A stretch of 64,000 nucleotides of DNA from Natronomonas sp. CBA1123 (lineage in GTDB: Archaea > Halobacteriota > Halobacteria > Halobacteriales > Haloarculaceae). The notes under the pieces are model-generated. The model was not told the DNA's origin, did no database searches, and saw only the letters and a list, made by a program, of their open reading frames with translations. Every line of letters begins with the position of its first letter. Position 1 is the first letter of the stretch. Positions 29,833-64,000 of this stretch are shown here, piece after piece. Where the stretch lies: positions 1 to 64,000 of the forward strand of contig NZ_WPCC01000002.1 of the NCBI RefSeq assembly GCF_009741925.1, given 5' to 3'. A program made the position numbers and the translations under genes.

Positions 29833-30525
29833 TCAGTTGAACCTGGGCCGTTCGGCGTATTCAATCGGGTCTCGGGACCCAGATTGACGGAACGCTTCGA
29901 GCCGGAATGCACAGGAATCACATGTCCCGCAGGCTGGCGCTTCGTCCCGATAACACGACCACGTCATCTCGTACGGGACATCGAGCTCCAGACCACGCTC
30001 GGCGATATCGGTCTTCGACCACTCCACGAACGGAGCCTCAAGCGAAATTTCGGTGTCTGGTTTCGTTCCCACGTCGATGACTTGCTGGAACGCATCGAAG
30101 AACGCGGGACGGCAGTCCGGGTACCCCGAGAAGTCCTCCGAGTGAGCGCCGATGAAGACAGCCGAGCACTCGTTTGCTTCGGCGTAGGAGACAGCCATAG
30201 ACAGCAAGTTTGCGTTCCGGAAGGGGACGTAGGACGTTGGAATTTCGTCGCTTTCTATATCGGCCTCTTCGACCTCCATCTCCTCGTCAGTCAAGCTCGA
30301 AGCGCCGATCACCGAGAGATGACTGGTTTCGATGTGCAGAAAATCAGCCGCATCGACCTCCTCGGCCAGCGCTTTCGCACATTCGTACTCTTTGCCCTCC
30401 GTTTGCTGTCCGTAAGAGGTGTGCAAAAAGTACGGTTCGTAGCCGCGGTCCATCGCCTCGTAGACCGCCGTTGCGCTGTCCATGCCACCGGAAACCAGAA
30501 TCACCGCGCGTTCGTCGTTACTCAT
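29833..30525 (-). CDS. queC: 7-cyano-7-deazaguanine (preQ0) synthase QueC
   Basis: QueC converts 7-carboxy-7-deazaguanine to preQ0 with ATP and ammonia. The 230-residue protein has the PP-loop SGGMDSATAVYEA (about residues 12-24), YGQQTEGKEYECAKALAEE (about 38-56), FRNANLLSMAVSYAEA (about 102-117), and the zinc-binding cysteines WSCYRDEAPACGTCDSCAFR (about 192-211). The start MSNDERA at 30525 overlaps the folE stop by eight bases. It is the last gene of the four-gene preQ0 operon. preQ0 feeds tRNA archaeosine and, with a DpdA-type enzyme, DNA modification. Confidence 0.95.
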   Translation of the reverse strand: MSNDERAVILVSGGMDSATAVYEAMDRGYEPYFLHTSYGQQTEGKEYECAKALAEEVDAADFLHIETSHLSVIGASSLTDEEMEVEEADIESDEIPTSYVPFRNANLLSMAVSYAEANECSAVFIGAHSEDFSGYPDCRPAFFDAFQQVIDVGTKPDTEISLEAPFVEWSKTDIAERGLELDVPYEMTWSCYRDEAPACGTCDSCAFRLEAFRQSGSRDPIEYAERPRFN

Positions 30526-31120
30526 GGGAATCAACCGCCGAGCGGAACCGCCGCCGTTCGTTTTCAGTCAGTTCACCGACCGTAGACTGGGTCGTTGTTT
30601 CGCTTGCCGTTTCCACGCCTCGCATTGCTTCACAGAGATGTGTCGCCGTTAGTTCCACTCTGACGGCCTCCGCGTCTACTTCGTCGGCTAGCCCTTCCGC
30701 GATATCCGCCGTCAGTCCTTCCTGCACTGTCAGCCGACGCGACCGCCAGCGGACGTACCGCGCGAGTTTCGAGAGTCCAACGATATCACCGTCGGGGCGA
30801 TACGCGATGTGTGCGACGCCATGGTACGGCAGTATATGGTGCTCGCACAGACTATAAACGGGAATTCCGGTCTTAATCACCAGGTCATTCGTTTCGGCCA
30901 CGAAGGTGCGCATGTCGGGCTTTTCCGCGTCCCTGTTGCCTTCTGTGAGCGTCTTGAAGGCGGCCGGAACCCGGCGTTCCCAAGTGTCTTTCAGTCCGTC
31001 TCTATCAGGGTCTTCGCCAACCGCCTCCAGCAACATACGCGTCGCGCGCTGAGCCTTCTCCCAATCGATGCTGTCCGATTCTGCGTCCGTGCCGTTCGAA
31101 TGGTACTGCTGTCTCGTCAT
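30518..31120 (-). CDS. folE: GTP cyclohydrolase I, type IA (FolE)
   Basis: FolE converts GTP to 7,8-dihydroneopterin triphosphate, the first step to preQ0. The 200-residue protein carries SLCEHHILPYHGVAHIAY (zinc Cys and His, about residues 90-107), IVGLSKLARYVRWRSRRLTVQE (about 113-134) and ATHLCEAMRGVE (second zinc Cys, about 158-169). Many archaea use the unrelated MptA/FolE2 (type IB) enzyme instead, so a type IA enzyme inside this operon suggests acquisition with the cluster. It overlaps queE by four bases and queC by eight. Confidence 0.95.
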   Translation of the reverse strand: MTRQQYHSNGTDAESDSIDWEKAQRATRMLLEAVGEDPDRDGLKDTWERRVPAAFKTLTEGNRDAEKPDMRTFVAETNDLVIKTGIPVYSLCEHHILPYHGVAHIAYRPDGDIVGLSKLARYVRWRSRRLTVQEGLTADIAEGLADEVDAEAVRVELTATHLCEAMRGVETASETTTQSTVGELTENERRRFRSAVDSHE

Positions 31121-31893
31121 GTTCCAGGTGCGTCGTTCCAGAGATCGACGTGCAAGCGCGGCGTGTAGCGATAGCCGTATTCCATCGCCAACTCCGCGAC
31201 CTCGTTTCGCTTTGCGTCCAGTTCCTCTCGGGTCATCCCCTCGGGCATGAGTAGAACGTTCTCGTTCGGGACCGATGTCTCGGTCGCATCACGAACACGC
31301 TCGACCAGCGCCTCGATTTCGGGCATGTCGTCGCTTCCGGTCACGACGAACTTCAACTGGCTATCGTACTGATCGACGAGCGCCGAGAGAGCGTTCATGT
31401 CGATGCGACGCTGTTCGTGCCGGTCGGCCCACTCACCGTCTCCTTTCGGGTCTCGCTCCGCTGTCGGCGTACTGGAGGCAAGTTTGGGACTGATACTCGC
31501 CAGATCGATTGCCGCATCTCGGAAGATGGTTCCGTTCGTCTCGACGGTCGTGTGGTAGCCGTAGTCGGCTAACTCGTCAAGCAGTTCGACCGATTCTTCG
31601 TGAATCATGGGTTCACCGCCGGTGAAAACGACGTGGTCGGCTTGCTTGTACGACAGAATCTCGTCAACGATGTCGTCGATCGAGAGCCACGCGCCCGTCG
31701 GCTCCCACGAGGTGTGATAGGAATCACAGAACCAGCATCGGAGGTTACAGCCCGACGTCCTGACGAATACTGAGGGAACACCCGAAAGCTTGCCCTCTCC
31801 CTGCAGCGAGCAGAAGAGTTCGTTAATCGGGAGTCCATCTCCCTCAATGTCATCCCCGGGGGCGAGCTCATCGACGTTACTGGCTACGGGCAT
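31117..31893 (-). CDS. queE: 7-carboxy-7-deazaguanine synthase QueE
   Basis: QueE is a radical-SAM enzyme that rearranges 6-carboxy-tetrahydropterin to 7-carboxy-7-deazaguanine. The 258-residue protein has the cluster motif RTSGCNLRCWFCDSYHTSW (about residues 45-63, CxxxCxxC), the Gly-rich VVFTGGEPMIHEES (about 88-101) and TVETNGTIF (about 115). The start at 31893 overlaps the queD stop, and the end overlaps folE. All four steps from GTP to preQ0 are therefore in one operon. Confidence 0.95.
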   Translation of the reverse strand: MPVASNVDELAPGDDIEGDGLPINELFCSLQGEGKLSGVPSVFVRTSGCNLRCWFCDSYHTSWEPTGAWLSIDDIVDEILSYKQADHVVFTGGEPMIHEESVELLDELADYGYHTTVETNGTIFRDAAIDLASISPKLASSTPTAERDPKGDGEWADRHEQRRIDMNALSALVDQYDSQLKFVVTGSDDMPEIEALVERVRDATETSVPNENVLLMPEGMTREELDAKRNEVAELAMEYGYRYTPRLHVDLWNDAPGT

Positions 31894-32354
31894 CAGTAGG
31901 TGGCACAGAGCTCCCCTGTTTCTCGGACCGACACGGATACGTCGGAGACAGAGTCCGGAAACGCTTCCAGCATTCGCTCTTCGAGGAGGACTGCCATCAC
32001 CTCCGCTGTCGGGGGGTGGTCGAGGACGACCATCGCATCAGCGTCTCCAGAGGCTTCGAATCCCTCGATAAGCGGGTCGCCGTCTTCGACGAGGAACATG
32101 TGGTCCCACTCGTCGATTACACCTGTCACGTCGCCCTTATCGACGACCCATCCCTCTTCTGTGAGGGTTCCAGTCACCTCGACGGTGATTTGGTAGTTGT
32201 GCCCGTGTGGGCGCGAACACTTCCCCTCGTGGTGAAGAATTCGGTGGCCTGCGCTGATTCGGATCGGTCTATCATCGCCGATCCGAAGGGTTCTTTCTCC
32301 GGATTTTTCGGATAAAGTGCTATCTTGTTCTTCTCCGAAAGCACTTCGAGGCAT
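31893..32354 (-). CDS. queD: 6-carboxy-5,6,7,8-tetrahydropterin synthase QueD
   Basis: QueD converts dihydroneopterin triphosphate to 6-carboxy-tetrahydropterin. The 153-residue protein has the zinc histidines in SAGHRILHHEGKCSRPHGHNY (about residues 34-54) with the nearby catalytic Cys, DKGDVTGVIDEWDHMFLVE (about 73-91) and PPTAEVMAVLL (about 114-124). The N-terminal 25 residues are an extension compared with the usual length of about 120. It is the first gene of the operon and starts at the promoter's expected leaderless position. Confidence 0.93.
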   Translation of the reverse strand: MPRSAFGEEQDSTLSEKSGERTLRIGDDRPIRISAGHRILHHEGKCSRPHGHNYQITVEVTGTLTEEGWVVDKGDVTGVIDEWDHMFLVEDGDPLIEGFEASGDADAMVVLDHPPTAEVMAVLLEERMLEAFPDSVSDVSVSVRETGELCATY

Positions 32355-32384: not shown

Positions 32385-33425
32385 CTATCTCCCGACGCCT
32401 TTCGACTCCGGTTGGGGAATATCGTACTGTTCGTAGGAAATCGATCCGTCGGTTACAGTTAGGAGCCATGCGACTCGATCGGTTGGGTCCTTGTTCGTGC
32501 TCATTCGCTCCGCTGCTCCCGTATACATCACCGGGATGCCGTTCCAATTGGTCATGGTCGCATCGTGGTGATGGCCCGAGACGACGAAATCGAACGTGCC
32601 ATCGAACGGCCGTTGGATTCTGCTCAAGTCAACGTTTTTTGTCCCCTCTCCGGAGAGTTGTTGGAGGGTCTGGTGTAGTACCAGAATCGATTCCCCGTTA
32701 TCGGCAGTCTTTGAGAACGTGAGGTTATCCCACGGGATGTTCCCCTCTGGCTGATGGTCGGCACCGAACAGTTGGATGTCGGTTCCTACTGTTGTCCCGG
32801 TGGTACTCAGATTGAATACGGTGATCCCTTCTAATTCGTCCAAGAGCTTGTTTCCCGCCTTCGACTCGTGGTTCCCACGAACGTAGTAGAACGGAATTCC
32901 GGCTTCGTTTAATCGTTCGAAGACCTGCTGGCGAGTGAGAAGAGTTTGTAAGTGGGTGGCGTTATCGTGGAAGATATCACCGACATGAACCACTGCGTCG
33001 ACTTCCTGATTGACGCTGTACTCTGCTGCTGCAGTGAGCGCACCAAGTGGGTCGATTTCTGCCTTCGTCTTCGGGTGCTTCTTTCGACCGATATGGGTAT
33101 CTCCAACGACGAGTATTCGTGTATTTTGCTGGGTCGAGCCCAGCGGTTCAATGACCGTTCGCTTGCTCGGAGCGAGTTGAACGTCGTGCCCTCTTCCCCC
33201 ACCAGTAACGTTACAACGAGAGATACGATATCGGTGATTCGGCTCCCAGTTGACCGAAATTTTGGCTCCTTCATAATCAATCAGTTTCAGCGGATTCTGA
33301 GCAGTATCCTGGAGTTCGACTTCAGCCCGACGCTTTTTCCCAGGATGCCAGTCTACAGCAACGACTTCGACGACGATTGGCTCTGGAAGCGTTCCACCTG
33401 CTGAGAGGTCATCAACAGTAACCAA
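32385..33425 (-). CDS. Metallophosphoesterase with N-terminal OB-like domain
   Basis: The 346-residue protein has calcineurin-like motifs: VVGDTHIGRK (about residue 107), VVHVGDIFHDNATH (about 146), YYVRGNHESKA (about 180), LVLHQTLQQL (about 250) and VVSGHHHDATM (about 279). The first 95 residues are a beta-rich domain (VEVVAVDWHPGKKR and RYRISRCNVTGGG). The layout resembles Mre11-type nucleases or DNA-linked phosphodiesterases. It lies directly upstream of the preQ0 operon on the same strand, so it may be a nuclease of the island. That role is inferred. Confidence 0.85.
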   Translation of the reverse strand: MVTVDDLSAGGTLPEPIVVEVVAVDWHPGKKRRAEVELQDTAQNPLKLIDYEGAKISVNWEPNHRYRISRCNVTGGGRGHDVQLAPSKRTVIEPLGSTQQNTRILVVGDTHIGRKKHPKTKAEIDPLGALTAAAEYSVNQEVDAVVHVGDIFHDNATHLQTLLTRQQVFERLNEAGIPFYYVRGNHESKAGNKLLDELEGITVFNLSTTGTTVGTDIQLFGADHQPEGNIPWDNLTFSKTADNGESILVLHQTLQQLSGEGTKNVDLSRIQRPFDGTFDFVVSGHHHDATMTNWNGIPVMYTGAAERMSTNKDPTDRVAWLLTVTDGSISYEQYDIPQPESKGVGR

Positions 33426-34092: not shown

Positions 34093-36126
34093 TCATTCAA
34101 CTTCTGAGGGTCGAATATCGGCCTTGGGTCGGCGGACAGCGGCATCCAAATTCCATCGTTTCTGTGCGAATTCGACGATATCGTCGAGTCGCTCCTCAAT
34201 CTGGGTTTGGCCCCACTCGTCGTACGTCCGCGCTATTGCTCGGGTCATGGTGAAATCAGAATTCAGATACCCCGATTCCCCCTCATCAATCCGGTCTTTC
34301 TTCTCGTGGTAGGGTCGATTCTTCCACGAAGAATTCCGTGGCCCAGTCGTCAGCGTTAGATTTCCGAGACTGTTTTTGATCTCCTCGTGAATTTCTGCCT
34401 CTGATTCCGAGAGTTGTAACTTGCTCGTATCTTGTGGCCAGATGTGGTCTAACGTATAGTCGTTCCCCGCGTTTTCGGCGGCCTGCTGGATGTTCGTTTC
34501 ACCACCACCGCCGTCCCTATGTCGGAGATAGAGTTCATACGAAAACAGGAGATACCGGAGGTCCTTGTACCGGATTCGTTCGTAGGCATTCGGATTGCGT
34601 AGCAGTGACTCGAAGTCGTTCTGCTTCGACCGGATACGCTTTTTGAGTTTCCCAATCATCCAGTCGGCACTCGGATCGCCAGTAGCGATATCGTTCGCTA
34701 GCGTGTAGAACGTCCCACGACCGGTGTCGGACCGGCTGACGGTTGTGTAGATTCTAAACGAAGCGACTTCGATCAACTGAAGGATTTCATGTAGTGAATC
34801 ACGCGAAAGGTCGCCATCCACATGTTCGTCCCAGATAGTCAGCAACAGCGGGTAGAAGTTCCCAAGCCGATCCAGAGCAAATATTTTCTGTAACTCCCAG
34901 TTAAGTGCCGGGTCATAGTCGCCAGAACTCCCATACGACCCAATCGTCTCCATATGAGAGTAATATCGCGTGAGGCTGTCCGTGTATTCGTCAATCTCCT
35001 CGATACAATCTCGCGGGTAGTCCTCGTAGAGGTCGGGACGCTTTCCGGTGCGGAGGTTGGTAAAATGCCACTTGATTGCGCCTAGGTAGACCGGCGCGCC
35101 GGAGCGGAGCGTCTTGTTCCGCCGTGTGGTTTCCGATCGGAGGTAGCTGGCGTTGAGAGACCGGTCGATGTTCGATATGTAATGATAGCGCTGAATCTGG
35201 TCCTCGCTGAGGTCAGCAACTCGGTCAGTCTCGGAGATGTCCTGCATCCATCGATAAATCTGCCCGAATCGCTGTTGGACGGTATCAATAGAGAAGGTAA
35301 GAGGATCTACCGGTGAGTCAGCAACATACACGCTATGCATCAAGAAGCTCTTTGTCTTATCCAGGTTACTTAGGCCGATTCCCCGATCGTTGACTGACTC
35401 GAATATCAGTGTCGCTTCCTCGGGCTTATCGACAGTGTACACGATCAATCGAAGCGATTGAATCGTCCTAAGAAGTGCCGTGAGTTCGTGTAGGAACTCT
35501 TCCAGTGAAGATTCTGTCTGTCTCTGTTCGAGCGCCTCACGATAATATCGGTAGGCATCAATCAACCGCCTTTGTGATGGCGTTCGAACCGCCGTTTCAT
35601 CGACGTCCTCCTTGAGAACGCTTCGGAAGACCTCATCGTCGTCATCCTGAAGATGGAGTTTAAACTGGTTCTGGCTCCTGACTTCCCGGATCCGCTGATC
35701 GATAACAAACCGCCGCCTGTGCTCCTCAGCTGGAATCGCATCATAGAGTTTCCTCGCTTCTACAGAGAGTTCTGTTTCATCAATATTCGCGTAGACGGAT
35801 CCAATCGCACGGACCAGTAAGACGAGTGTCGTGAGCCGCTGTTGCCCGTCGACGATTCCATAGCCACGATAGTTCGGTGTATCGTCCGCCGTTTGGACAG
35901 AGCGCTGCTCGGCTCTGCAGATGACTGTCCCCAAATAGTGACCCTTGTCTGTATCGAGGATATTATACAAGTCTTGCCACAGGTCGGACCACTCGGACTG
36001 TTCCCATGAGTAGAACCGCTGATAGTCGGGTATATGGAAAACACTCCCATCAAACAGTTCACCGACGGTATAATCCGTGTTCTCAAGCTTCTCCGTAGTT
36101 TCGCCACCAGCCGACCCAGACGCCAT
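34093..36126 (-). CDS. DUF262/DUF1524 (GmrSD-like) protein
   Basis: The 677-residue protein has an N-terminal DUF262 (ParB/sulfiredoxin-fold) NTPase domain with FHIPDYQRFYSWE (about residue 30) and IVDGQQRLTTLVLL (about 88-101), and a C-terminal DUF1524 HNH-type nuclease domain with YTLDHIWPQDTSKL (about 557) and NSLGNLTLTTGPRNSSW (about 585). The single-chain fusion is typical of GmrSD type IV restriction enzymes, which cut modified phage DNA. A ParB-like protein (DpdB) also assists DpdA in the bacterial 7-deazaguanine system, so this protein could play either part. I chose the ATG at 36126, about 26 bases downstream of a TATA element. Confidence 0.88.
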   Translation of the reverse strand: MASGSAGGETTEKLENTDYTVGELFDGSVFHIPDYQRFYSWEQSEWSDLWQDLYNILDTDKGHYLGTVICRAEQRSVQTADDTPNYRGYGIVDGQQRLTTLVLLVRAIGSVYANIDETELSVEARKLYDAIPAEEHRRRFVIDQRIREVRSQNQFKLHLQDDDDEVFRSVLKEDVDETAVRTPSQRRLIDAYRYYREALEQRQTESSLEEFLHELTALLRTIQSLRLIVYTVDKPEEATLIFESVNDRGIGLSNLDKTKSFLMHSVYVADSPVDPLTFSIDTVQQRFGQIYRWMQDISETDRVADLSEDQIQRYHYISNIDRSLNASYLRSETTRRNKTLRSGAPVYLGAIKWHFTNLRTGKRPDLYEDYPRDCIEEIDEYTDSLTRYYSHMETIGSYGSSGDYDPALNWELQKIFALDRLGNFYPLLLTIWDEHVDGDLSRDSLHEILQLIEVASFRIYTTVSRSDTGRGTFYTLANDIATGDPSADWMIGKLKKRIRSKQNDFESLLRNPNAYERIRYKDLRYLLFSYELYLRHRDGGGGETNIQQAAENAGNDYTLDHIWPQDTSKLQLSESEAEIHEEIKNSLGNLTLTTGPRNSSWKNRPYHEKKDRIDEGESGYLNSDFTMTRAIARTYDEWGQTQIEERLDDIVEFAQKRWNLDAAVRRPKADIRPSEVE

Positions 36127-36130
36127 AACA

Positions 36131-36163
36131 ACCAAGACATTTCGACTAAATTAAAACTTGGTC
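36131..36163 (-). promoter_or_regulatory. Promoter of the DUF262 gene flanked by CTTGGT half-sites
   Basis: On the minus strand a TATA-like AGTTTTAATTTAG (about 36147-36159) lies about 26 bases before the ATG at 36126. ACCAAG (36131-36136) and ACTTGGTC (36156-36163) form inverted half-sites around it. The eight-base ACTTGGTC is identical to one arm of the operator at 40060-40077, which suggests the same regulator acts on both. Confidence 0.45.
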
Positions 36164-36839: not shown

Positions 36840-39038
36840 GTGCGGTTCTACGTTCCTGAATGGGATGACAACGTCGATGCGGATTACGACTTCGTCCACG
36901 ACGAGCACTCTTCTCTGAACCCGAGCGAACGGAACCTCTCCTACATCTGGGATATCTTTGACCGGGAGACGACGCCCATCGATGGCGTACTCATCTCGCG
37001 GGAACAAGTAGAAGACACACCCTCGAAGTTCGAACGGATCACGGAAAGCGGCGTGTACGACGCCCCGTTGCTCGACATCCCGGAGTGGCTGCCGACTATC
37101 AGCGACTGTGGCGCGTGGGGCTACAAATCGCTCCCCTTCCCTCCGTACGGGAACGAGGGGATGCTGGAGTTCTACGAGAGACTCGACGTGACCGTGGGCG
37201 TCACCATCGACCACCTCGTACTCGGAAGCGGCCACACCGCGAGACTGTACCTCGACGAACGCGCGTTCCCGGACGGCTTTACGAAATCCGACATCCCTGA
37301 CGCCGTCTCCGAGGAGGTCGATGTGATGACGGACGAATGGCCCGATGAATGGCCCGAATACGTGACGAACTACAACCCGTCCATTTCGAATACTGGAGAT
37401 GTCGAACTGTTCGACCCTGATGTATTCGAGCAACCTCTTTCGGCGCTTCTCTCCGACCTCGAAGCACACCCACACGCGGTCTATCGTGACGACGACATGG
37501 CCTTCCGGTACGATTTGACGTTGACGAACGCCCGCGAGATGAAGGATCTCTACAATCAGGGGGACTACTCGTTTCGACTCATGGTGGCAATCCAGGGTTG
37601 GAACTCTCGCTCATATGCTGATGCCGCCGAACGCGTTCTGGACATGGGGTACCAGTATCTCGGAATCGGCGGCGTCGCCGGGAGCCCCGAAGAGGCAGTC
37701 AAGGACTACGTGACTGCAGTCGGCCGCTCGGTGAAGGACTTCGAGCGCGCTCACGACACTCGAATCGATACACACGTCTTCGGGTTCGCTAAGACGGGGG
37801 CCTTCGACACCATCGGCAAAAGCGGAATGACCAGTTTCGACAGCGCGAGTATGCTGCGGGCCGCCTGGACTGGTGGCGATAACTACCACCTCGATAGCGA
37901 CCAGCGATACGATGCGATTCGTGTCAGGTACCCGCCCAATGGGGCCTCCGTCGAGGAAGCGGTCGAAAAGGCATTACGAGCACAGGAGATGTTGCACGCA
38001 CTCCGTGCCTTCGACGCAGATGAATCGATTTCCCAAGCCCTGACAGGCTGGCATCGGTCTGCCGTTACTGCGCTTGAGAGCCTCGAACCATACCTACGGG
38101 AGCATCGGCACGACAATCGTTTCGACCATTCGACTCTTCGACCCATCAAACAGGCTTTCCGAGATGACTACGAGTACGGTCATGAGGTCAGCGCGAATTT
38201 CAGCGGGAAGTTCCGAGGTGATTTAGCGAAGCTTCTCCGGATGGATAGCCACGAGAATCCGCTTCCCTTTGAGGAATACCAGAAACTTATCTCCCGTGCT
38301 CGGGATGTCTTCGGGGATTGGACTCCCACGAATCTCGAAGAGATTCAACAACGTGAGAAACGTTCCGGGGAATACGGAACCTTCGACCAACTCTGGGTTC
38401 TCGTTGCCAACTATACTGCACATGTCGGTGACGAGAACCTCCGTGACCAATACGAGGAATTACTTCGGCGCGAACCGTGGAACGACTGCGACTGTCGAAT
38501 CTGCGAAGAACACGGTATCGAAGTCGCTATTTTCCGTGGAAACAATCGGAATCGTCGCCGTGGATTCCACAATACGCGGCGCTTCTACGACGAATTCGAA
38601 CGCGACCTTCCGAAAACCGCCATCCTGACGCGTGGAGGTACTGGACTGTCGAACACCGATACCGTGGAGGAGTTCCTCCGTGCTAATCGTTCGGAATTCT
38701 GGAAACAGGTCCACGACCTCCCGGTGGCTGAAATCGGCACGGTCACGGCAAGCGGAATTCACGAATGGTGGGCGGATTCGCCGTCAACCATCTCCTTCGC
38801 TCCACGCTCTATGCGGGAGGCTCTTGAGGAATTCACGCTCCGGTATCAAGAGCTATTTATTGACGGGAGTAGTTGGACGCCGGACGAAGAGTTGATGGAC
38901 GCAGTCCGCGAGGCCGACTGTGAGATCCACGTCATCAATGAACCGGGAGAGCTTCGGACTGCTGTTCTCGAACGACTCGGCTACGAACCGGACTTCGTCC
39001 CCGATTCGACGCTACAGTCCGGACTTACGGAGTACTGA
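36840..39038 (+). CDS. DpdA-like large TGT-fold transglycosylase
   Basis: The 732-residue protein resembles a tRNA-guanine transglycosylase. ISDCGAWGYKS (about residues 87-97) takes the place of the TGT DSGGFQ motif, HVFGFAKTGAFDT (about 311) that of the substrate-site Gly-rich loop, and MTSFDSASMLRAAW (about 330-343) supplies the candidate nucleophile Asp. A CDCRIC motif with a downstream His (about 547-575) matches the TGT zinc site. It is about twice the length of a TGT, as in DpdA, which inserts preQ0 into DNA in place of guanine. It lies 5 kb from the preQ0 operon. An alternative is a divergent archaeosine TGT, but the extra domains and the defence neighbours favour a DNA enzyme. The start is GTG. 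Confidence 0.75.
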   Translation: MRFYVPEWDDNVDADYDFVHDEHSSLNPSERNLSYIWDIFDRETTPIDGVLISREQVEDTPSKFERITESGVYDAPLLDIPEWLPTISDCGAWGYKSLPFPPYGNEGMLEFYERLDVTVGVTIDHLVLGSGHTARLYLDERAFPDGFTKSDIPDAVSEEVDVMTDEWPDEWPEYVTNYNPSISNTGDVELFDPDVFEQPLSALLSDLEAHPHAVYRDDDMAFRYDLTLTNAREMKDLYNQGDYSFRLMVAIQGWNSRSYADAAERVLDMGYQYLGIGGVAGSPEEAVKDYVTAVGRSVKDFERAHDTRIDTHVFGFAKTGAFDTIGKSGMTSFDSASMLRAAWTGGDNYHLDSDQRYDAIRVRYPPNGASVEEAVEKALRAQEMLHALRAFDADESISQALTGWHRSAVTALESLEPYLREHRHDNRFDHSTLRPIKQAFRDDYEYGHEVSANFSGKFRGDLAKLLRMDSHENPLPFEEYQKLISRARDVFGDWTPTNLEEIQQREKRSGEYGTFDQLWVLVANYTAHVGDENLRDQYEELLRREPWNDCDCRICEEHGIEVAIFRGNNRNRRRGFHNTRRFYDEFERDLPKTAILTRGGTGLSNTDTVEEFLRANRSEFWKQVHDLPVAEIGTVTASGIHEWWADSPSTISFAPRSMREALEEFTLRYQELFIDGSSWTPDEELMDAVREADCEIHVINEPGELRTAVLERLGYEPDFVPDSTLQSGLTEY

Positions 39039-39040
39039 AT

Positions 39041-39757
39041 ATGCGTATACTCATCGTCGATCAGTGTTCGAGTGCGAAGAAGTCGAGCGGCCGAAACGAC
39101 CCATTAGATAGGGACACGATCGATGCTGCTCCCCCTGACGAACTCATCGGGATGGAGGGTGCGGAATCGTATCCGGCCGAAGAGTTGTACCAGGGCAGAC
39201 AACAGCAGCGAATCACCGAAGCCAAGCGACTTTTAGAGGACGCCGGTGACGATGTTGATCGGGTCTTCATTAGTGCTGGATTCGGCCTCGTCGGCGACCA
39301 AGAGGAACTCCCGTTGTATGATGTAACGTTCGCGGATATGAGCGCTGCCGAAATCGACGACCGGGCTGAGGCCCTGGAAATTCACGAAGACCTTTGTGAC
39401 CTGACCGTCGGTGGCGATTACGACGTGGTGTTCTTCGCTTTGGGGAGTGATTACTACAGAAGCGCAAAACTGGAGGATCTCCTTCCGGAGGTTTCTAACG
39501 AGACGTTCGTCGTGTTCTTCAATCAGGATGCGTTTGAGGAGGAGTACGATAACGGACTTTCGATAGCAGCACGTACTCCCGAAGCGAAGGCCTACGGGAC
39601 GATTGTTGTCGCCCTGAAAGGAGAATACCTCCGCAATTTCGCCGAACACAGAATGGCAGGTGACGAGGTAGAATCCATCGACGATATCGAAGCCTACTGT
39701 ACGGAGGAAGTTGGTTCGCAGGCAGGCTTGGACGATTACTCGTCCAGCAATTCGTAG
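39041..39757 (+). CDS. YaaA/DUF6884-like protein
   Basis: The 238-residue protein follows the DpdA-like gene after two bases. Motifs YPAEELYQGRQQQRI (about residues 46-60), VFISAGFGLVGDQEELPLYD (about 77-96) and VVFFALGSDYYRSA (about 128) match the DUF6884/YaaA-type fold (pattern: PAxxLYxG, iSAgyGLv, lpxYDxT). Proteins of this fold occur next to or fused to TGT-like enzymes in 7-deazaguanine clusters. It may act on the modified base, for example as the later step that DpdC performs in bacteria. That is a hypothesis. It overlaps the convergent regulator gene by 22 bases. Confidence 0.65.
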   Translation: MRILIVDQCSSAKKSSGRNDPLDRDTIDAAPPDELIGMEGAESYPAEELYQGRQQQRITEAKRLLEDAGDDVDRVFISAGFGLVGDQEELPLYDVTFADMSAAEIDDRAEALEIHEDLCDLTVGGDYDVVFFALGSDYYRSAKLEDLLPEVSNETFVVFFNQDAFEEEYDNGLSIAARTPEAKAYGTIVVALKGEYLRNFAEHRMAGDEVESIDDIEAYCTEEVGSQAGLDDYSSSNS

Positions 39758-40008
39758 ACTTCCTCTACGAGTTCCAAGAGCCGCTCACCGTCAGTAGTTA
39801 TCGAGTATCGCACGTCTCTGGCGTTTTTTTCATTTCGTGTAAGGAGTCCCGCGTGCTCTAACTCTCGGAGCCGCTCCGTGATGACATCACTCGACGTCTC
39901 GAACTCCGCTTCTATTTGGCTGTAGTTCTGTGTCCCCTCCGCGGCGAGATACCGGAGGATTTCGAGGGCCCATTTACGGCATACCACCTCACGAGCGATA
40001 TCGGCCAT
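39736..40008 (-). CDS. Winged-helix regulator (HxlR/MarR-like)
   Basis: A 90-residue single-domain winged helix: REVVCRKWALEILRYLAAEG (about residues 6-25), YSQIEAEFETSSDVITERLRELEHAGLL (about 29-56) and a wing with RDVRYSITTDGERLLELV. It has one Cys (position 10), as in HxlR proteins. It is divergent from the second TGT-like gene, and a perfect palindrome lies between them (40060-40077), so it probably controls that operon, and through the matching half-site perhaps also the DUF262 gene. Confidence 0.85.
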   Translation of the reverse strand: MADIAREVVCRKWALEILRYLAAEGTQNYSQIEAEFETSSDVITERLRELEHAGLLTRNEKNARDVRYSITTDGERLLELVEEVYELLDE

Positions 40009-40059
40009 CTATCCCGGTGCTCGGGGAGTAGTGATTTACAAGCATCGCTCTTCGGATTT

Positions 40060-40086
40060 ACTTGGTCTCGACCAAGTCTTTATTAC
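40060..40086 (+). promoter_or_regulatory. Operator palindrome and TATA of the second TGT operon
   Basis: ACTTGGTC-TC-GACCAAGT (40060-40077) is a perfect inverted repeat with eight-base arms. It is followed at once by a TATA-like CTTTATTACC (40077-40086). The ATG of the TGT-like gene at 40116 is about 30 bases further, so a bound regulator would block the promoter. Confidence 0.7.
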
Positions 40087-40115
40087 CCAGCCCAGCCAAG
40101 CGGAGCGCGTCGCAG

Positions 40116-41150
40116 ATGCTGTATCGACAACGAACGCTGGAGACCCCAAGCGGGCCACTACGGACGCCGACGCTCTTCCCGGTTCGGAACATCGGGAAAC
40201 GATCGTCCGATAACACGCCAGAATACGCGGATTCAATCCCGGATTTGGGTGTGGCGATGGTTAACGCCAGGGCAATCCGGCAACGAGATCCACAGTGGAA
40301 CCGCATTCGGGAGGGGGCAACACTACGAGCGGAGATGGGAGTCCCCAAAGACACCGTCGTGTTCGCCGATAGTGGAGGATTTGACTTCAGCGACGACGAA
40401 GTTGACACTACCCCAGAACGGACGCTCGAAACTCAGCGAGAAATTGGTGCGGATTTGCTGGGTACCGTCGATATCCCGTTGTTGCGGGAAAACCGAGACG
40501 CGGAAAACCAGCGTCGGGTAGAACAGAGCACCCAGTACGCCCTTCAAGCGAGCGATGCGCATGATGGCGAGGGCCTACTCATCGGTAGCGTCCACGGACA
40601 TGACCCCGAGACTGTCAGGAACACCCTGCAGTACCTGGAGCGACACGGTGACTTCGACGGATACGCACTCGGAAGCATGGTTCCGATTCGGACGGACTAC
40701 AAAAAAGTAACAAAGTTGATACTTGCTGCACGACAGGCTACCGACAAGCACCTCCACGTGTACGGACTCGGCGGCATCGTCTATCAACCGCTCCTCCTGT
40801 ACCTCGGTGTCGATAGCTTCGATTCTTCGGCATTCATCCGGAGTGCCGGCAATCGGAACTACTTGCTTCCCGGATTCGGTGGGCAAGAACTCCACACCAT
40901 CGAAGACCTGGAGTATTTGCCCTGTTCGTGTCCGGTCTGTCGTGACCGAACCCTCGACGATATCCGTGAAGACCGCGACTCCCTCACCCAGCACAATCTG
41001 TGGTCGCTGGCCATGGAACTCCGACGGTTCCGCTACATGGTGGCGGCAGGCGAGGACATCGAGGCGTATCTGGACCTCCGGTTCCGGGGCAACGAAGTGA
41101 CCTATCGGGCGTTCAAGCAGGCTAAACAGCAGGTCCGGAGGCTGACCTGA
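40116..41150 (+). CDS. TGT-fold ribosyltransferase-like protein (second paralogue)
   Basis: A 344-residue protein with the TGT hallmarks: TLFPVRNIGKR (about residues 17-27), VVFADSGGFDFSDDE (about 80, catalytic Asp 84), LLGTVDIPLL (about 119), GSVHGHDPETV and GYALGSMVPIRTDY (about 153-200), VYGLGGIVYQ (about 216) and GVDSFDSSAFIRSAGNR (about 231-247, candidate nucleophile Asp 236). The zinc site is CSCPVC with His 18 residues on (about 269-293). It lacks the PUA domain of archaeosine TGTs. In an island that already has a large DpdA-like protein, a second transglycosylase may act with it or on a different target (tRNA or DNA). I chose the ATG at 40116, downstream of the operator. Confidence 0.8.
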   Translation: MLYRQRTLETPSGPLRTPTLFPVRNIGKRSSDNTPEYADSIPDLGVAMVNARAIRQRDPQWNRIREGATLRAEMGVPKDTVVFADSGGFDFSDDEVDTTPERTLETQREIGADLLGTVDIPLLRENRDAENQRRVEQSTQYALQASDAHDGEGLLIGSVHGHDPETVRNTLQYLERHGDFDGYALGSMVPIRTDYKKVTKLILAARQATDKHLHVYGLGGIVYQPLLLYLGVDSFDSSAFIRSAGNRNYLLPGFGGQELHTIEDLEYLPCSCPVCRDRTLDDIREDRDSLTQHNLWSLAMELRRFRYMVAAGEDIEAYLDLRFRGNEVTYRAFKQAKQQVRRLT

Positions 41151-43396: not shown

Positions 43397-44050
43397 TCAT
43401 ACGGCTCCAAGATCGACGGCGAGACAGCCCTGCTCGGTGGGATAAGCGATTTTGCTCTTCCCTTCACGCTCCGAGCGAACGAAGTCCCGTTCTTCGAGCT
43501 CGGTTACGTGACGAGCGACCGTGCTCTTCGCGACGTTGAGGACGTTCGCAATAAGTTCCAGGGATGCCCCCTCATGTTCTTCGTTGACAATCACTTCAAG
43601 AGTCTCAACCACCGACTTACCCGGTGGATGGAGGAAATTCGGAATTTCTAATTCGGATACGGAACCGGAGATGTCGCTGAACTGGAGGACGCTGTCGATA
43701 CTGGACTGCCGGACGAACGTGACGAACGCTACCGGGAGATAGATATCGCGGGCGCCGCCACCGAGGATTAGGACGACATCATCCTCCGCCGCGTCGATTT
43801 GGGCGGCGGTCCGACGGATACTGTCGAAGAACCCATCCGGATCAAGAGTGACCGTCCGAATCTCGACGTTCGGTTGCAGTTCCGCGATCATCCGGCGGAC
43901 GTCATTCTTGGCTTCCTCGGCGCGAGGGTTGTCGTGGTCCGTTGGGTGAACCAGCACAATCTCGTCCTGTTCCTCAAGTCCGTATGTCAACACTGGACGC
44001 GTAACTCTGGTGCTATCGAATCCAAGTGTTGCAATGAATGTGGTCATCAC
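43397..44050 (-). CDS. csa3: Csa3-like CARF-HTH regulator
   Basis: The 217-residue protein starts TTFIATLGFDSTRVTRPVL and has VLILGGGARDIYLPVAFV (about residues 90-107), a CARF fold, followed by a C-terminal winged helix (ASLELIANVLNVAKSTVARHV, about 165-185) and a basic end. This is the layout of Csa3 regulators of archaeal CRISPR loci, which sense cyclic oligoadenylates. There is no CRISPR array or cas gene in the window, so here it may report nucleotide signals to the defence island. The promoter TATA is probably at 44118-44128 on the minus strand (CTTAAATATATTC). Confidence 0.85.
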   Translation of the reverse strand: MMTTFIATLGFDSTRVTRPVLTYGLEEQDEIVLVHPTDHDNPRAEEAKNDVRRMIAELQPNVEIRTVTLDPDGFFDSIRRTAAQIDAAEDDVVLILGGGARDIYLPVAFVTFVRQSSIDSVLQFSDISGSVSELEIPNFLHPPGKSVVETLEVIVNEEHEGASLELIANVLNVAKSTVARHVTELEERDFVRSEREGKSKIAYPTEQGCLAVDLGAV

Positions 44051-44405
44051 TCCTCACTGATGGACCGTCCCGACAAAACTGTGGTGTCCCATCTATACGA
44101 AATAGTATCGATGTATTGAATATATTTAAGATTCACACCGTCCGTTGACAAATCTGTCGAGGTCGTCTTCTCACAATCTGCTGGAGACGTCCGTTATAAC
44201 CTCCATACAAATGATAAATTCGGATTGTGGCTCATCAAATAATTACACAAACGTCCGGAAGTATTAATACCCTCGAGCCACGCGTTGTGGTATCCCTTTA
44301 CGGGGTCGCAAGCAGAGTTCGGAACCACATCACAATCGAGACCGAGGGGCAATGGGAGGTGGAACAAGGTCGCCACGCGAGAAGTGGCAACACTACGATA
44401 ACCGG
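44051..44405. promoter_or_regulatory. Divergent AT-rich promoter region
   Basis: The 355 bases between csa3 and the large operon are AT-rich at 44100-44280. A minus-strand TATA element (44118-44128) serves csa3. On the plus strand AGTATTAATACC (about 44260-44272) is a candidate TATA for the operon. If it is used, the transcript has a leader of about 110 bases, longer than the leaderless pattern elsewhere. A 77-codon frame (44227-44460) overlaps the operon start and is not supported. Confidence 0.4.
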
Positions 44406-45269
44406 ATGGAAACAGAGACCTGGTACGAGCGGTTCGACGCGGTGGAGTCGGTCGAGTTAGTCGACCTGATTCACACGGAGGCATCGACAGTCGTCGTCAA
44501 GGACGCACAATTAGAGAAGCGGGCAAAACAGGCGCGGGCGCAGCTCCGTTCACTGCCGTTGTTTGGGGCGCTCGGACTGGACACAGTTGTCCACACCGAG
44601 ATCTGGAACAACGAGTATAGCCCCATCGAATACAATCATCGCGCCGCGGGCGAGGTGACCGCCAACGAACTCGAGTTTCCGCTCCTGCATGTCGTTACCC
44701 AAGACGGAATCACCGAACACGGCGAGGAAGACCTCGTCCGAGGGCTGGTCGAGCAGTCACAGGCTGAGGACGGGACGTATATCCTCGTCACGGATACGAC
44801 GGCGCCGAAAACGCCAACCTATACAAAGAAGCCGGGTCGATCGATTGTCGACGACTTCCCACCAATCGCCGTCAGAGACTACGCATCGCTGACAAACACC
44901 TTCCTCGAGGACGTGCTAGAGGCGCGGTCGCGAATTCCTGTGGTTGACACCCGGAACGTGTTTTTCCACGCGGCCTCGGCACTCCACGCCGAAGCCGGCG
45001 CGCCGGCGGACAGCATCGAGGCGGTGTTCGACTACACCGAGGCCCCACCGGACAGTCCAGTATGGGACTCGGCCCGCTACTTCCTTGTCCACGACTTGGA
45101 AAACGTGCTGGAGGACTACTCCGAGCACATCCGGGAGGCGCTCCGCTCTTGGACAGAGAAGGGTGACACACAAAAAGTGGCCAACCACATCCTGGAAGTT
45201 CTTCAGGTCTGCGACTACGACGCATCGAAACTCGAAGACTACCGACAGCGGGACCCAGAATACAGATGA
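44406..45269 (+). CDS. Unknown protein, first gene of the 19-kb operon
   Basis: The 287-residue acidic protein starts METETWYERFDAVESVELVD. It has an alternating strand-helix pattern (for example FPLLHVVTQDGITEHGEED and GTYILVTDTTAPKTPTY, about residues 95-140) and a helical end. No family was recognised. I chose the ATG at 44406 over one at 44352. It overlaps the next gene by four bases. It opens the seven-gene unit that holds the helicases, so it is probably a core or regulatory subunit. Confidence 0.65.
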   Translation: METETWYERFDAVESVELVDLIHTEASTVVVKDAQLEKRAKQARAQLRSLPLFGALGLDTVVHTEIWNNEYSPIEYNHRAAGEVTANELEFPLLHVVTQDGITEHGEEDLVRGLVEQSQAEDGTYILVTDTTAPKTPTYTKKPGRSIVDDFPPIAVRDYASLTNTFLEDVLEARSRIPVVDTRNVFFHAASALHAEAGAPADSIEAVFDYTEAPPDSPVWDSARYFLVHDLENVLEDYSEHIREALRSWTEKGDTQKVANHILEVLQVCDYDASKLEDYRQRDPEYR

Positions 45270-46135
45270 TCGACAACTACGATTACAGCAGCAGCAAGCC
45301 AGAGACGGACCTCGTGAACTACAACACGGTACGAGTACCCGAACTGCGGCTAATCTACCGGACGCTCGACAGCGTGGGGGGACACGCTAATGTCTCGACG
45401 CTTAGAGACACGATGACCCCCGAAGACGATGACCATCTCGACGAGTGTCTCAGGTATCTCAGGGCAGTCGACCTGGTCGACCGAAATGAGGATCGCGTGG
45501 TCGAACTTGCTAACGAGGAGGTGTTCCCGAATCTCTCGTTCGAGCCGCGGCTACTTCTCCACCTGAACCAACAGGACCATCCCCAGGACCACGTCACCGA
45601 AGCCCAGCGCGTCGCGTTCGCGAAGGCGCCGAAGACGCTCCGACGGGATCAACTGGAAGTTGAACTTGAGGGCGAACTGGACTACATCGCCTGGAACGAG
45701 ACAAAACTCAACGCTTGGTACCGATTGCTGCAGGGGATTGGTGTCCTTTCGTTCATCGACTCACGGGAACTGGTGCTGTCGCCGCGACCGAGACTACTGT
45801 ACGAACTCTTCGAGACGTTCCGCGACACGGAGAACTCAACCGACTTCGGCGAGGCGGTCGCGTGGATCGAGAAGCACTTCATGTCGGTTCTGACGACCCG
45901 TCCGGGGACCCCGCGGCTCCACAAGGGTGTCACCGACACGCTGCAGACGCTACTCGACGAGGAGTACGTCAGTGTCCGTGGGATGTCGGATGCTACAAGC
46001 GAGGTGGTGCTTCCATTGACCCACTCCAGGAACGAAGAGCCCGCCGTGACGGAGTTCGAACTGCACGGCTGGCCGACGAACCCGCCGGCGAGCAAGCGTT
46101 ACCCGCTGGACCAGTTCACGGAGGCCCATACATGA
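45266..46135 (+). CDS. Unknown protein with winged-helix region (DpdG-like position)
   Basis: The 289-residue protein has a winged-helix-like section (NVSTLRDTMTPEDDDHLDEC then LRYLRAVDLVDRNEDR, about residues 42-78) and further helical segments. The size, and the place just before a large ATPase, coiled-coil protein, helicase and PLD gene, recall bacterial dpdG. The protein itself was not identified by motif. Start and stop overlap the neighbours by four bases each. Confidence 0.65.
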   Translation: MIDNYDYSSSKPETDLVNYNTVRVPELRLIYRTLDSVGGHANVSTLRDTMTPEDDDHLDECLRYLRAVDLVDRNEDRVVELANEEVFPNLSFEPRLLLHLNQQDHPQDHVTEAQRVAFAKAPKTLRRDQLEVELEGELDYIAWNETKLNAWYRLLQGIGVLSFIDSRELVLSPRPRLLYELFETFRDTENSTDFGEAVAWIEKHFMSVLTTRPGTPRLHKGVTDTLQTLLDEEYVSVRGMSDATSEVVLPLTHSRNEEPAVTEFELHGWPTNPPASKRYPLDQFTEAHT

Positions 46136-63690: not shown

Positions 63691-64000
63691 ATGTCGCCGA
63701 TGTCACGAGATTGGGATCAGAACACTGTTGACCGGCACATCAATTTTCTCCCCTCTCAACAGTCAAAAAACATCTTTCACGATACTCATTATCCAATCGA
63801 TAGAGTCTACGCTAACTATATTAGATCTCCTGTCCGGTATGATGAGTTCCTCACCCAAGAAAATATTCTGGAGTCAATCACCTCATCTAAACTAACCAAC
63901 GACAATCGACTCTTCATCATTGAAGGAGCAAGCGGATGTGGGAAAACCCAACTCTGCACATGGCTTTCACACCAACTTGGTCGCGAACTAGAGAGTGGTC
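63691..64000 (+). CDS. Second large ATPase, 3' end outside window
   Basis: An open frame from ATG 63691 (or 63700) runs off the right edge. Its 103 visible residues resemble the start of the 1125-residue ATPase at 46132: DWDQNTVDRHI against DWTDDTVRRYL, VRYDEFLTQENILESI against TNDEFVTQEEFRDAI, and Walker A EGASGCGKTQLCTWLSHQLG (residues 78-97) against the same residues of the other protein. The gene has AT-richer codon use than the 19-kb operon. It probably begins a related second cassette. Confidence 0.75.
   Translation, partial: MSPMSRDWDQNTVDRHINFLPSQQSKNIFHDTHYPIDRVYANYIRSPVRYDEFLTQENILESITSSKLTNDNRLFIIEGASGCGKTQLCTWLSHQLGRELESG

Follow-up and report, generated by a model that had tools for sequence, protein, structure and literature searches.

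The window analysed here comprises the first 64,000 nucleotides of a 207,538-base contig (NZ_WPCC01000002.1; C13 in our numbering) from the draft genome of the haloarchaeon Natronomonas sp. CBA1123 (3.45 Mb, 89 contigs, 97.04% complete). It harbors an island in which preQ0 synthesis genes and dpdA are both present, the combination that marks Dpd systems, and which probably exchanges a modified guanine into DNA as an antivirus island of haloarchaea. Two proteins of the tRNA-guanine transglycosylase (TGT) fold are encoded in this island, a DpdA of 732 residues and a second, small TGT of 344 residues (Table 1). An earlier note on this DNA had described the two open reading frames, each with a zinc site and Asp motifs, DCGAW in one and DSGGF in the other, and all of these are present as described. 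The arrangement suggests that in archaea a second enzyme took over from a helper protein of bacteria, DpdB. On balance, we slightly favor the view that archaeal Dpd/BRIGADE systems are two-TGT machines in which the unit containing the small TGT stands in for DpdB.

The larger protein scores above the curated cut-off of the DpdA family profile (Table 1) and matches the PADLOC DpdA model with an E value of 5.9e-71. Salmonella DpdA (7ui4) is the only solved relative that was found (phmmer E 3e-39). In the window DpdA, the active-site residues D89 (of DCGAW), D124, Q252 and the nucleophile D334 as well as the zinc ligands C550, C552, C555 and H577 show no variation across 50 of 50 full-length haloarchaeal rows. 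The catalytic Asp residues and the zinc site are also invariant in 12 of 12 diverse DpdA proteins. DpdA and the DpdC-like protein encoded downstream share one reading frame in 26 of 53 haloarchaeal loci. On a plasmid of Deinococcus taeanensis (L128 12206-14326), a DUF6884 (DpdC-like) protein and DpdA are fused as one protein.

The reading frame of the small TGT is open from 40062 to 41150; the alignment with its relatives starts at the ATG of position 40116 and thus yields the 344-residue protein. It clearly belongs to the TGT family (Table 1), matches TgtA of P. horikoshii (1iq8) with an E value of 3.3e-22 and has its closest named relative in Halapricum hydrolyticum (94% identity). The residues D85 (of DSGGF), D119, H160, the nucleophile D236 and the zinc ligands C270, C272, C275 and H293 are each invariant in 53 of 53 haloarchaeal rows, two of which (L005 and L121) are one contig read twice. 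D85, D236 and H160 align with D95, D249 and Q169 of TgtA (numbering counted from the printed alignment). In an AlphaFold model (pLDDT 65.2, pTM 0.70, thin alignment) the best structural match is again 1iq8 (Z 29.3, root mean square deviation 2.9, 321 aligned residues). The match spans residues 19 to 353 of the 577-residue TgtA chain, and the C-terminal PUA-bearing region is absent. Judged by this model, the small TGT consists of the catalytic domain alone. Salmonella DpdA was not among the best 50 of 1000 chains compared with the model, a result that carries no weight.

Residue conservation in the aligned sequences of both enzymes is far beyond chance, and both look active. As both active sites are intact, the pair is not of the type that combines a catalytic with a non-catalytic subunit. 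That type is represented by the queuine TGT heterodimer QTRT1/QTRT2, a eukaryotic enzyme in which one subunit lacks the catalytic Asp. The likeness to a 'bacterial' queuine TGT heterodimer drawn in the earlier note is thus inexact. We also considered the His at the position of TgtA Q169 as a DpdA signature swapped into the small TGT. This idea was dropped because Gln is the residue in most DpdA proteins of our set, whether alphaproteobacterial, cyanobacterial or haloarchaeal; His at this position (AHGW) is found in Enterobacter/Salmonella-type DpdA.

Being the TGT of an archaeon, the small protein might be taken for the housekeeping archaeosine enzyme, and the earlier note had held this likely if it were the only TGT in the genome. 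The separate enzyme was sought and found: TgtA (278.8 bits) and ArcS of the same genome are encoded on another contig (C52), apart from the island. The small TGT reaches only 150.7 bits with the TgtA profile TIGR00432, the cut-off of which is 350. An order-wide survey of 392 genomes (thresholds E 1e-60 for the small TGT and E 1e-20 for DpdA) detected it in 51 genomes and not in the remaining 341, and a separate TgtA was present in 10 of 11 genomes searched. Two observations favor a housekeeping role. The catalytic domain of TgtA in Natronomonas sp. CBA1123 is intact (L016 2593-4112, minus strand), but its C-terminal part runs on in another frame, owing to an assembly error or true damage. In addition, only a small TGT and a divergent DpdA were found in one 96% complete genome (G214; L077, L186), in which neither TgtA nor ArcS was matched at E 0.01. 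Nevertheless, the presence of TgtA and ArcS elsewhere and the restriction of the small TGT to 51 of 392 genomes mean that it is not the housekeeping enzyme; this explanation is refuted in the main and can be regarded as extremely improbable.

Within the order, the distribution of the small TGT follows that of DpdA. DpdA was detected in 52 of the 392 genomes and both proteins in 50, leaving one genome with the small TGT alone (G108) and two with DpdA alone (G213 and G256). The Fisher p value for this co-occurrence is 1e-59, uncorrected for kinship. A phylum search with the DpdA family returned 12 of 294 genomes above cut-off. Eight are from the order, all of them among the 50 with both TGTs, and four are from other classes. 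In each of these four, a stand-alone small TGT (frames of 342-354 residues) is encoded on the same contig about 17-24 kb from DpdA, and TgtA is also present. One genome of our set (G340) carries a second DpdA (L120 9465-12605) adjoined by its own divergent second TGT of 302 residues.

The small TGT gene is followed directly by genes for a 304-residue winged-helix protein and a 386-residue ATPase in 49 of 53 haloarchaeal loci. Of the four exceptions, one is fragmentary (L005), one has a gene that is split (L007) and two have longer called frames (L105, L107); in these last two, both partner genes are detectable by tblastn. All four other-class genomes have these three genes together as well (E 1e-44 to 1e-103). 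We refer to them as unit B and to the genes of DpdA and the DpdC-like protein as unit A. Of the 53 loci, 44 have DpdA upstream of the small TGT with both genes on one strand, three have it on the opposite strand and one has the other gene order; in five, DpdA falls outside the analyzed stretch. Unit B is intact where unit A is on the other strand (L095, L096, L116). Pairwise distances from 45 loci gave Spearman coefficients of 0.85-0.89 inside unit B versus 0.73-0.77 with DpdA. The 304-residue protein occurs in 53 of the 392 genomes. RPC62, SelB and MarR are among the winged-helix proteins matched by its AlphaFold model (pLDDT 70; residues about 9-228 reliable, 229-304 unreliable). As far as the models go, the small TGT has a winged-helix protein as its neighbor instead of a PUA region. 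The ATPase resembles BrxD, which is described as an ORC/Cdc6 AAA+ ATPase linked to a helicase in Type-2 BREX in the available text of PMC12839542.

The presence of a second TGT outside the archaea was examined in 19 bacterial or phage-labelled dpdA loci (18 plasmids and one phage-labelled record), 10 of which covered just about 6 kb on each side of dpdA. DpdB without a second TGT was found in 13 loci, in all of them beside or near DpdA, a second TGT without DpdB in four, neither in two (L171, L173) and both in none. Using two second TGTs as queries, tblastn against the whole plasmid records (E 1e-3) revealed no further TGT place in those records. The four DpdB-less loci with a second TGT are from Nostoc, Picosynechococcus, Paenibacillus and Deinococcus. 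In the two cyanobacteria, the second TGT is encoded between two DEAD helicases, and that of Nostoc is without the CxCxxC zinc motif (by eye). In Paenibacillus and Deinococcus, it precedes a 243-246-residue protein and a DpdH-like NTPase. Judged by these neighbors, the second TGT is accompanied by an NTP-driven partner each time. Two further plasmids also carry TGT genes. A lone TGT of Nostoc sp. MS1 (L207 7680-8615) is encoded near dnaB, MT-A70 and a DNA cytosine methyltransferase, and a Haladaptatus plasmid (L205 7956-12655), a record that is not among the DpdA matches, has two larger genes annotated as tRNA-guanine transglycosylase. A search for DpdB in 21 of the 56 DpdA-bearing archaeal genomes found none in 20 and one match with an E value of 8.8e-4. 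No DpdB match was obtained in the genome of Natronomonas sp. CBA1123, and none of the open reading frames in the window matched the DpdB profile.

These distributions bear on the possibility that unit B serves another defense function and merely travels with DpdA islands. Units A and B are sometimes apart or on opposite strands, and the winged-helix gene occurs without the small TGT and DpdA in one genome (G060) and, at a contig edge, in a second (G356), as would be expected of such a passenger. The same pairing in other classes of the phylum and the recurrence of DpdA-linked second TGTs in DpdB-less loci of three bacterial phyla make it highly unlikely.

A comparison with archaeosine TGT and DpdA, proposed in the earlier note, was made in a tree built on 338 columns from 59 proteins of the TGT fold. 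It placed nine haloarchaeal and four other-class small TGTs in a single clade of their own (support 100/99). The neighbors of this clade are TgtA, ArcS and queuine TGT, whereas DpdA lies apart from it. Holding the small TGT and TgtA together was borderline rejected (p-AU 0.044). According to the tree and this test, the small TGTs make up a separate, old family, and the protein is no recent copy of TgtA or DpdA. A single clade of the archaeal and cyanobacterial second TGTs was not rejected (p-AU 0.181), and those of Paenibacillus and Deinococcus and the second TGT of G340 formed long branches without placement. Repeated recruitment of TGTs to DpdB-less loci is therefore not shown by these data. 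A virus origin was also tried and set aside, as neither the small TGT nor the window DpdA had a match in IMG/VR and the small TGT had none in phage records at E 0.01.

Its position nearer to TgtA than to DpdA, together with a fold closest to that of a tRNA enzyme, leads to the explanation that the small TGT serves the system as effector or regulator by modifying an RNA, either a tRNA or one of viral origin, and that DpdA alone modifies DNA. Action of one of the two proteins on tRNA had also been suggested in the earlier note. In contrast to TgtA, the small TGT is devoid of the PUA-bearing region, and PUA is associated with tRNA binding, as is also mentioned in the available text of PMC6884629. 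Moreover, its partners are a winged-helix protein and an ORC-like ATPase, and its distribution is that of an accessory gene. An RNA-directed role is thus distinctly unlikely. The more general proposal of the note, that the two proteins act jointly or divide the labor between them, agrees with their near-perfect co-occurrence and the integrity of both active sites; its tRNA branch is not sustained.

The gene inventory of the island is given in Table 1. The core order is the same on a Salinigranum plasmid, where the annotations include queC, folE, QueE, TGT and 'BREX system ATP-binding'.

Table 1. Predicted genes of the island in the window from Natronomonas sp. CBA1123
Feature	Coordinates	Strand	Evidence
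QueC (preQ0 synthesis)	29833..30534	-	PF06508 243.4 bits
FolE, GTP cyclohydrolase I	30518..31120	-	PF01227 177.8 bits
QueE, radical SAM	31117..31893	-	PF04055 67.2 bits; syntenic L208 gene annotated QueE
QueD / PTPS	31893..32354	-	PF01242 74.6 bits
DpdA (732 aa), homologous to DNA-guanine transglycosylase; DCGAW, Zn site	36840..39038	+	NF041059 266.6 bits (curated cut-off 200)
DpdC-like (DUF6884), 238 aa	39041..39757	+	PADLOC DpdC E 1.9e-7; PF21818 23.6 bits, under cut-off 30
HxlR-type winged-helix regulator, 90 aa, in a subset of loci	39736..40008	-	PF01638 45.2 bits
Small second TGT (DSGGF), 344 aa, catalytic domain only (model)	40116..41150	+	PF01702 97 bits (cut-off 26.3)
Multi-winged-helix protein partnering the small TGT, 304 aa	41152..42066	+	Neighbor position in loci; winged-helix matches of model
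BrxD-like (ORC/Cdc6 type) ATPase, 386 aa	42063..43223	+	PF10923 58 bits, cut-off 22.2; PADLOC BrxD 1.2e-11
Two proteins, family unassigned, alongside the DpdH-like gene	44403..46135	+	Recurrence beside DpdH in several loci
Large DpdH-like ATPase, 1125 aa	46132..49509	+	PADLOC DpdH 5.7e-13; NF041065 59.3 bits, under cut-off 450
DEAD helicase, DruE/DpdJ kind (YprA-like), 1855 aa	50281..55848	+	
Second YprA-like helicase, 1834 aa	55845..61349	+	36% identity to the first, over 1863 columns
PLD-type putative nuclease, 652 aa	61336..63294	+	PF13091 25.5 bits, just below cut-off 27; PADLOC DrmC 9e-4

Beside these genes, the island encodes a Csa3-like regulator with CARF and winged-helix domains (43397-44050, minus strand), which recurs ahead of the DpdH-like block in several loci. 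Near the preQ0 genes, an Mre11-like protein (32385-33425, minus strand) and a GmrSD-type protein with HEC-06/SspE-like matches (34093-36135, minus strand) are found. At the window end begins a further protein with a P-loop and, by eye, a DpdH-like look (63691-64000, plus strand).

The gene set is compatible with the following course of events. FolE, QueD, QueE and QueC, encoded alongside, would make preQ0. The presumed DNA-binding multi-winged-helix protein and the BrxD/ORC-like AAA+ ATPase of unit B may load onto host DNA and open or select sites, at which the small TGT and DpdA would jointly, as a hetero-complex or in relay, swap guanine for preQ0. The DpdC-like protein may convert dPreQ0 to dADG, and the products of the DpdH-like, helicase and PLD genes would attack unmodified DNA. 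Unit B would thereby fill the place of DpdB in proteobacterial Dpd systems, for the role of which we follow the wording in the available text of PMC12839542. Its association with DpdA, the lost PUA region and the DNA-type partners suggest that DNA is the substrate of the small TGT and that it works together with DpdA. We consider a two-TGT machine with unit B doing the job of DpdB the most economical account, the chief rivals being an RNA-directed effector and two independent DNA enzymes.

In the latter case, DpdA and the small TGT would not form a joint machine; each would modify DNA by itself, and the two would differ in the site, strand or stage of their action. Two complete active sites encoded in separable units would suit such enzymes, and Q252 in DpdA versus H160 in the small TGT hints at differing pockets. 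The helper-free DpdA of most viral loci, described below, points in the same direction. Nevertheless, both proteins are kept together in 50 of the 53 genomes having either, and one TGT suffices in bacterial Dpd loci with DpdB, so that independent action appears unlikely.

Several observations weigh against the proposed two-TGT machine. Three genomes (G108, G213, G256) break the pairing; in G256, 899 bases separate the end of the DpdA gene from a contig end, and for G213 a contamination of 10% is listed. Co-inheritance on mobile islands alone can create co-occurrence. Three small-TGT loci (L087, L090, L094) contain, elsewhere in the locus, DGQHR (DpdB-like) proteins with E values of 1e-18 to 1e-24. 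Among proteins of solved structure, those most closely related to the small TGT are tRNA enzymes. Its H160 takes the place of a Gln that is kept by TgtA and, by eye, by all four other-class small TGTs (T2_G598, T2_G523, T2_G614, T2_G590), so that its base preference may differ. Finally, neither DpdB nor a second TGT was present in the locus in eight of 10 viral DpdA loci, indicating that a helper is not always needed and that no strict chemical need is shown. A phage DpdA works in E. coli without the host TGT according to the available text of PMC6884629. A strict law by which no locus has both helpers or neither was rejected as absolute, given that these viral loci and the bacterial loci L171 and L173 have neither helper in the stretch covered.

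Extending the two-TGT reading beyond this island, we tentatively suggest, with confidence that stays short of even, that cellular 7-deazaguanine DNA modification might rely either on DpdA with DpdB or on DpdA with an NTPase-driven, small DNA-acting TGT without DpdB. The two-TGT form might be the archaeal rule and recur in cyanobacteria, Paenibacillus and Deinococcus, and the small archaeal TGT might represent a second DNA-guanine transglycosylase family older than the split of haloarchaea from the other classes searched. If the small TGT acts on DNA, such a second family would exist, and its ATPase and DNA-binding partner could confer site choice. The pair bears on the contribution of DpdB to the insertion of the base and on the working of Dpd systems that lack DpdB. 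With a second TGT following DpdA through the archaea, these points become directly testable by genetics. One published survey of dpd islands required dpdA and dpdB according to its available text (PMC11888242), and a two-TGT class would thus escape its collection.

Among known systems, the island resembles Dpd of Salmonella Montevideo and other bacteria (DpdA, DpdB and DpdC, followed by DpdD-K) in a DpdA above the NCBIfam cut-off, the DpdC-like gene, the preQ0 genes, the DpdH-like ATPase, the DpdJ-like helicases and the PLD protein. It differs in that no DpdB was found and a second TGT with a winged-helix protein and an ORC-like ATPase is present instead, in its two large YprA-like helicases, and in that several Dpd proteins score under curated cut-offs. 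The haloarchaeal DpdA is homologous to the Salmonella enzyme but longer, and has Gln in place of the His of the Enterobacter/Salmonella type. The small TGT shares the TGT fold, the catalytic Asp pair and the zinc site with TgtA; it is distinguished by the missing C-terminal PUA region, its separate clade, its accessory distribution and the change of Q169 to His in haloarchaea. In the available text of PMC12839542, BRC is a defense locus that can include a TGT joined to BREX-like ATPases without DpdB, as in the island. BRC is defined there by HerA/FtsK, PglZ and DUF6079, and no DpdA is reported beside its TGT in that text. A further counterpart is BRIGADE, a system restricted to halophilic archaea with a predicted 7-deazaguanine cluster, two YprA helicases and PLD according to the available text of a preprint (PMC12458937). 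All of these are found in the island of a halophilic archaeon described here, the PLD protein at its score just below cut-off. The helicases of BRIGADE Type II are nearly identical according to the same text, whereas those of the island are 36% identical (Table 1). The main text of the preprint, as available, contains neither 'TGT' nor 'transglycosylase', so the TGT pair is not discussed there. The island fits the published BRIGADE class and, within the open-licence literature covered (most subscription journals lie outside this scope), the pairing of DpdA with a second TGT seems to be the new part.

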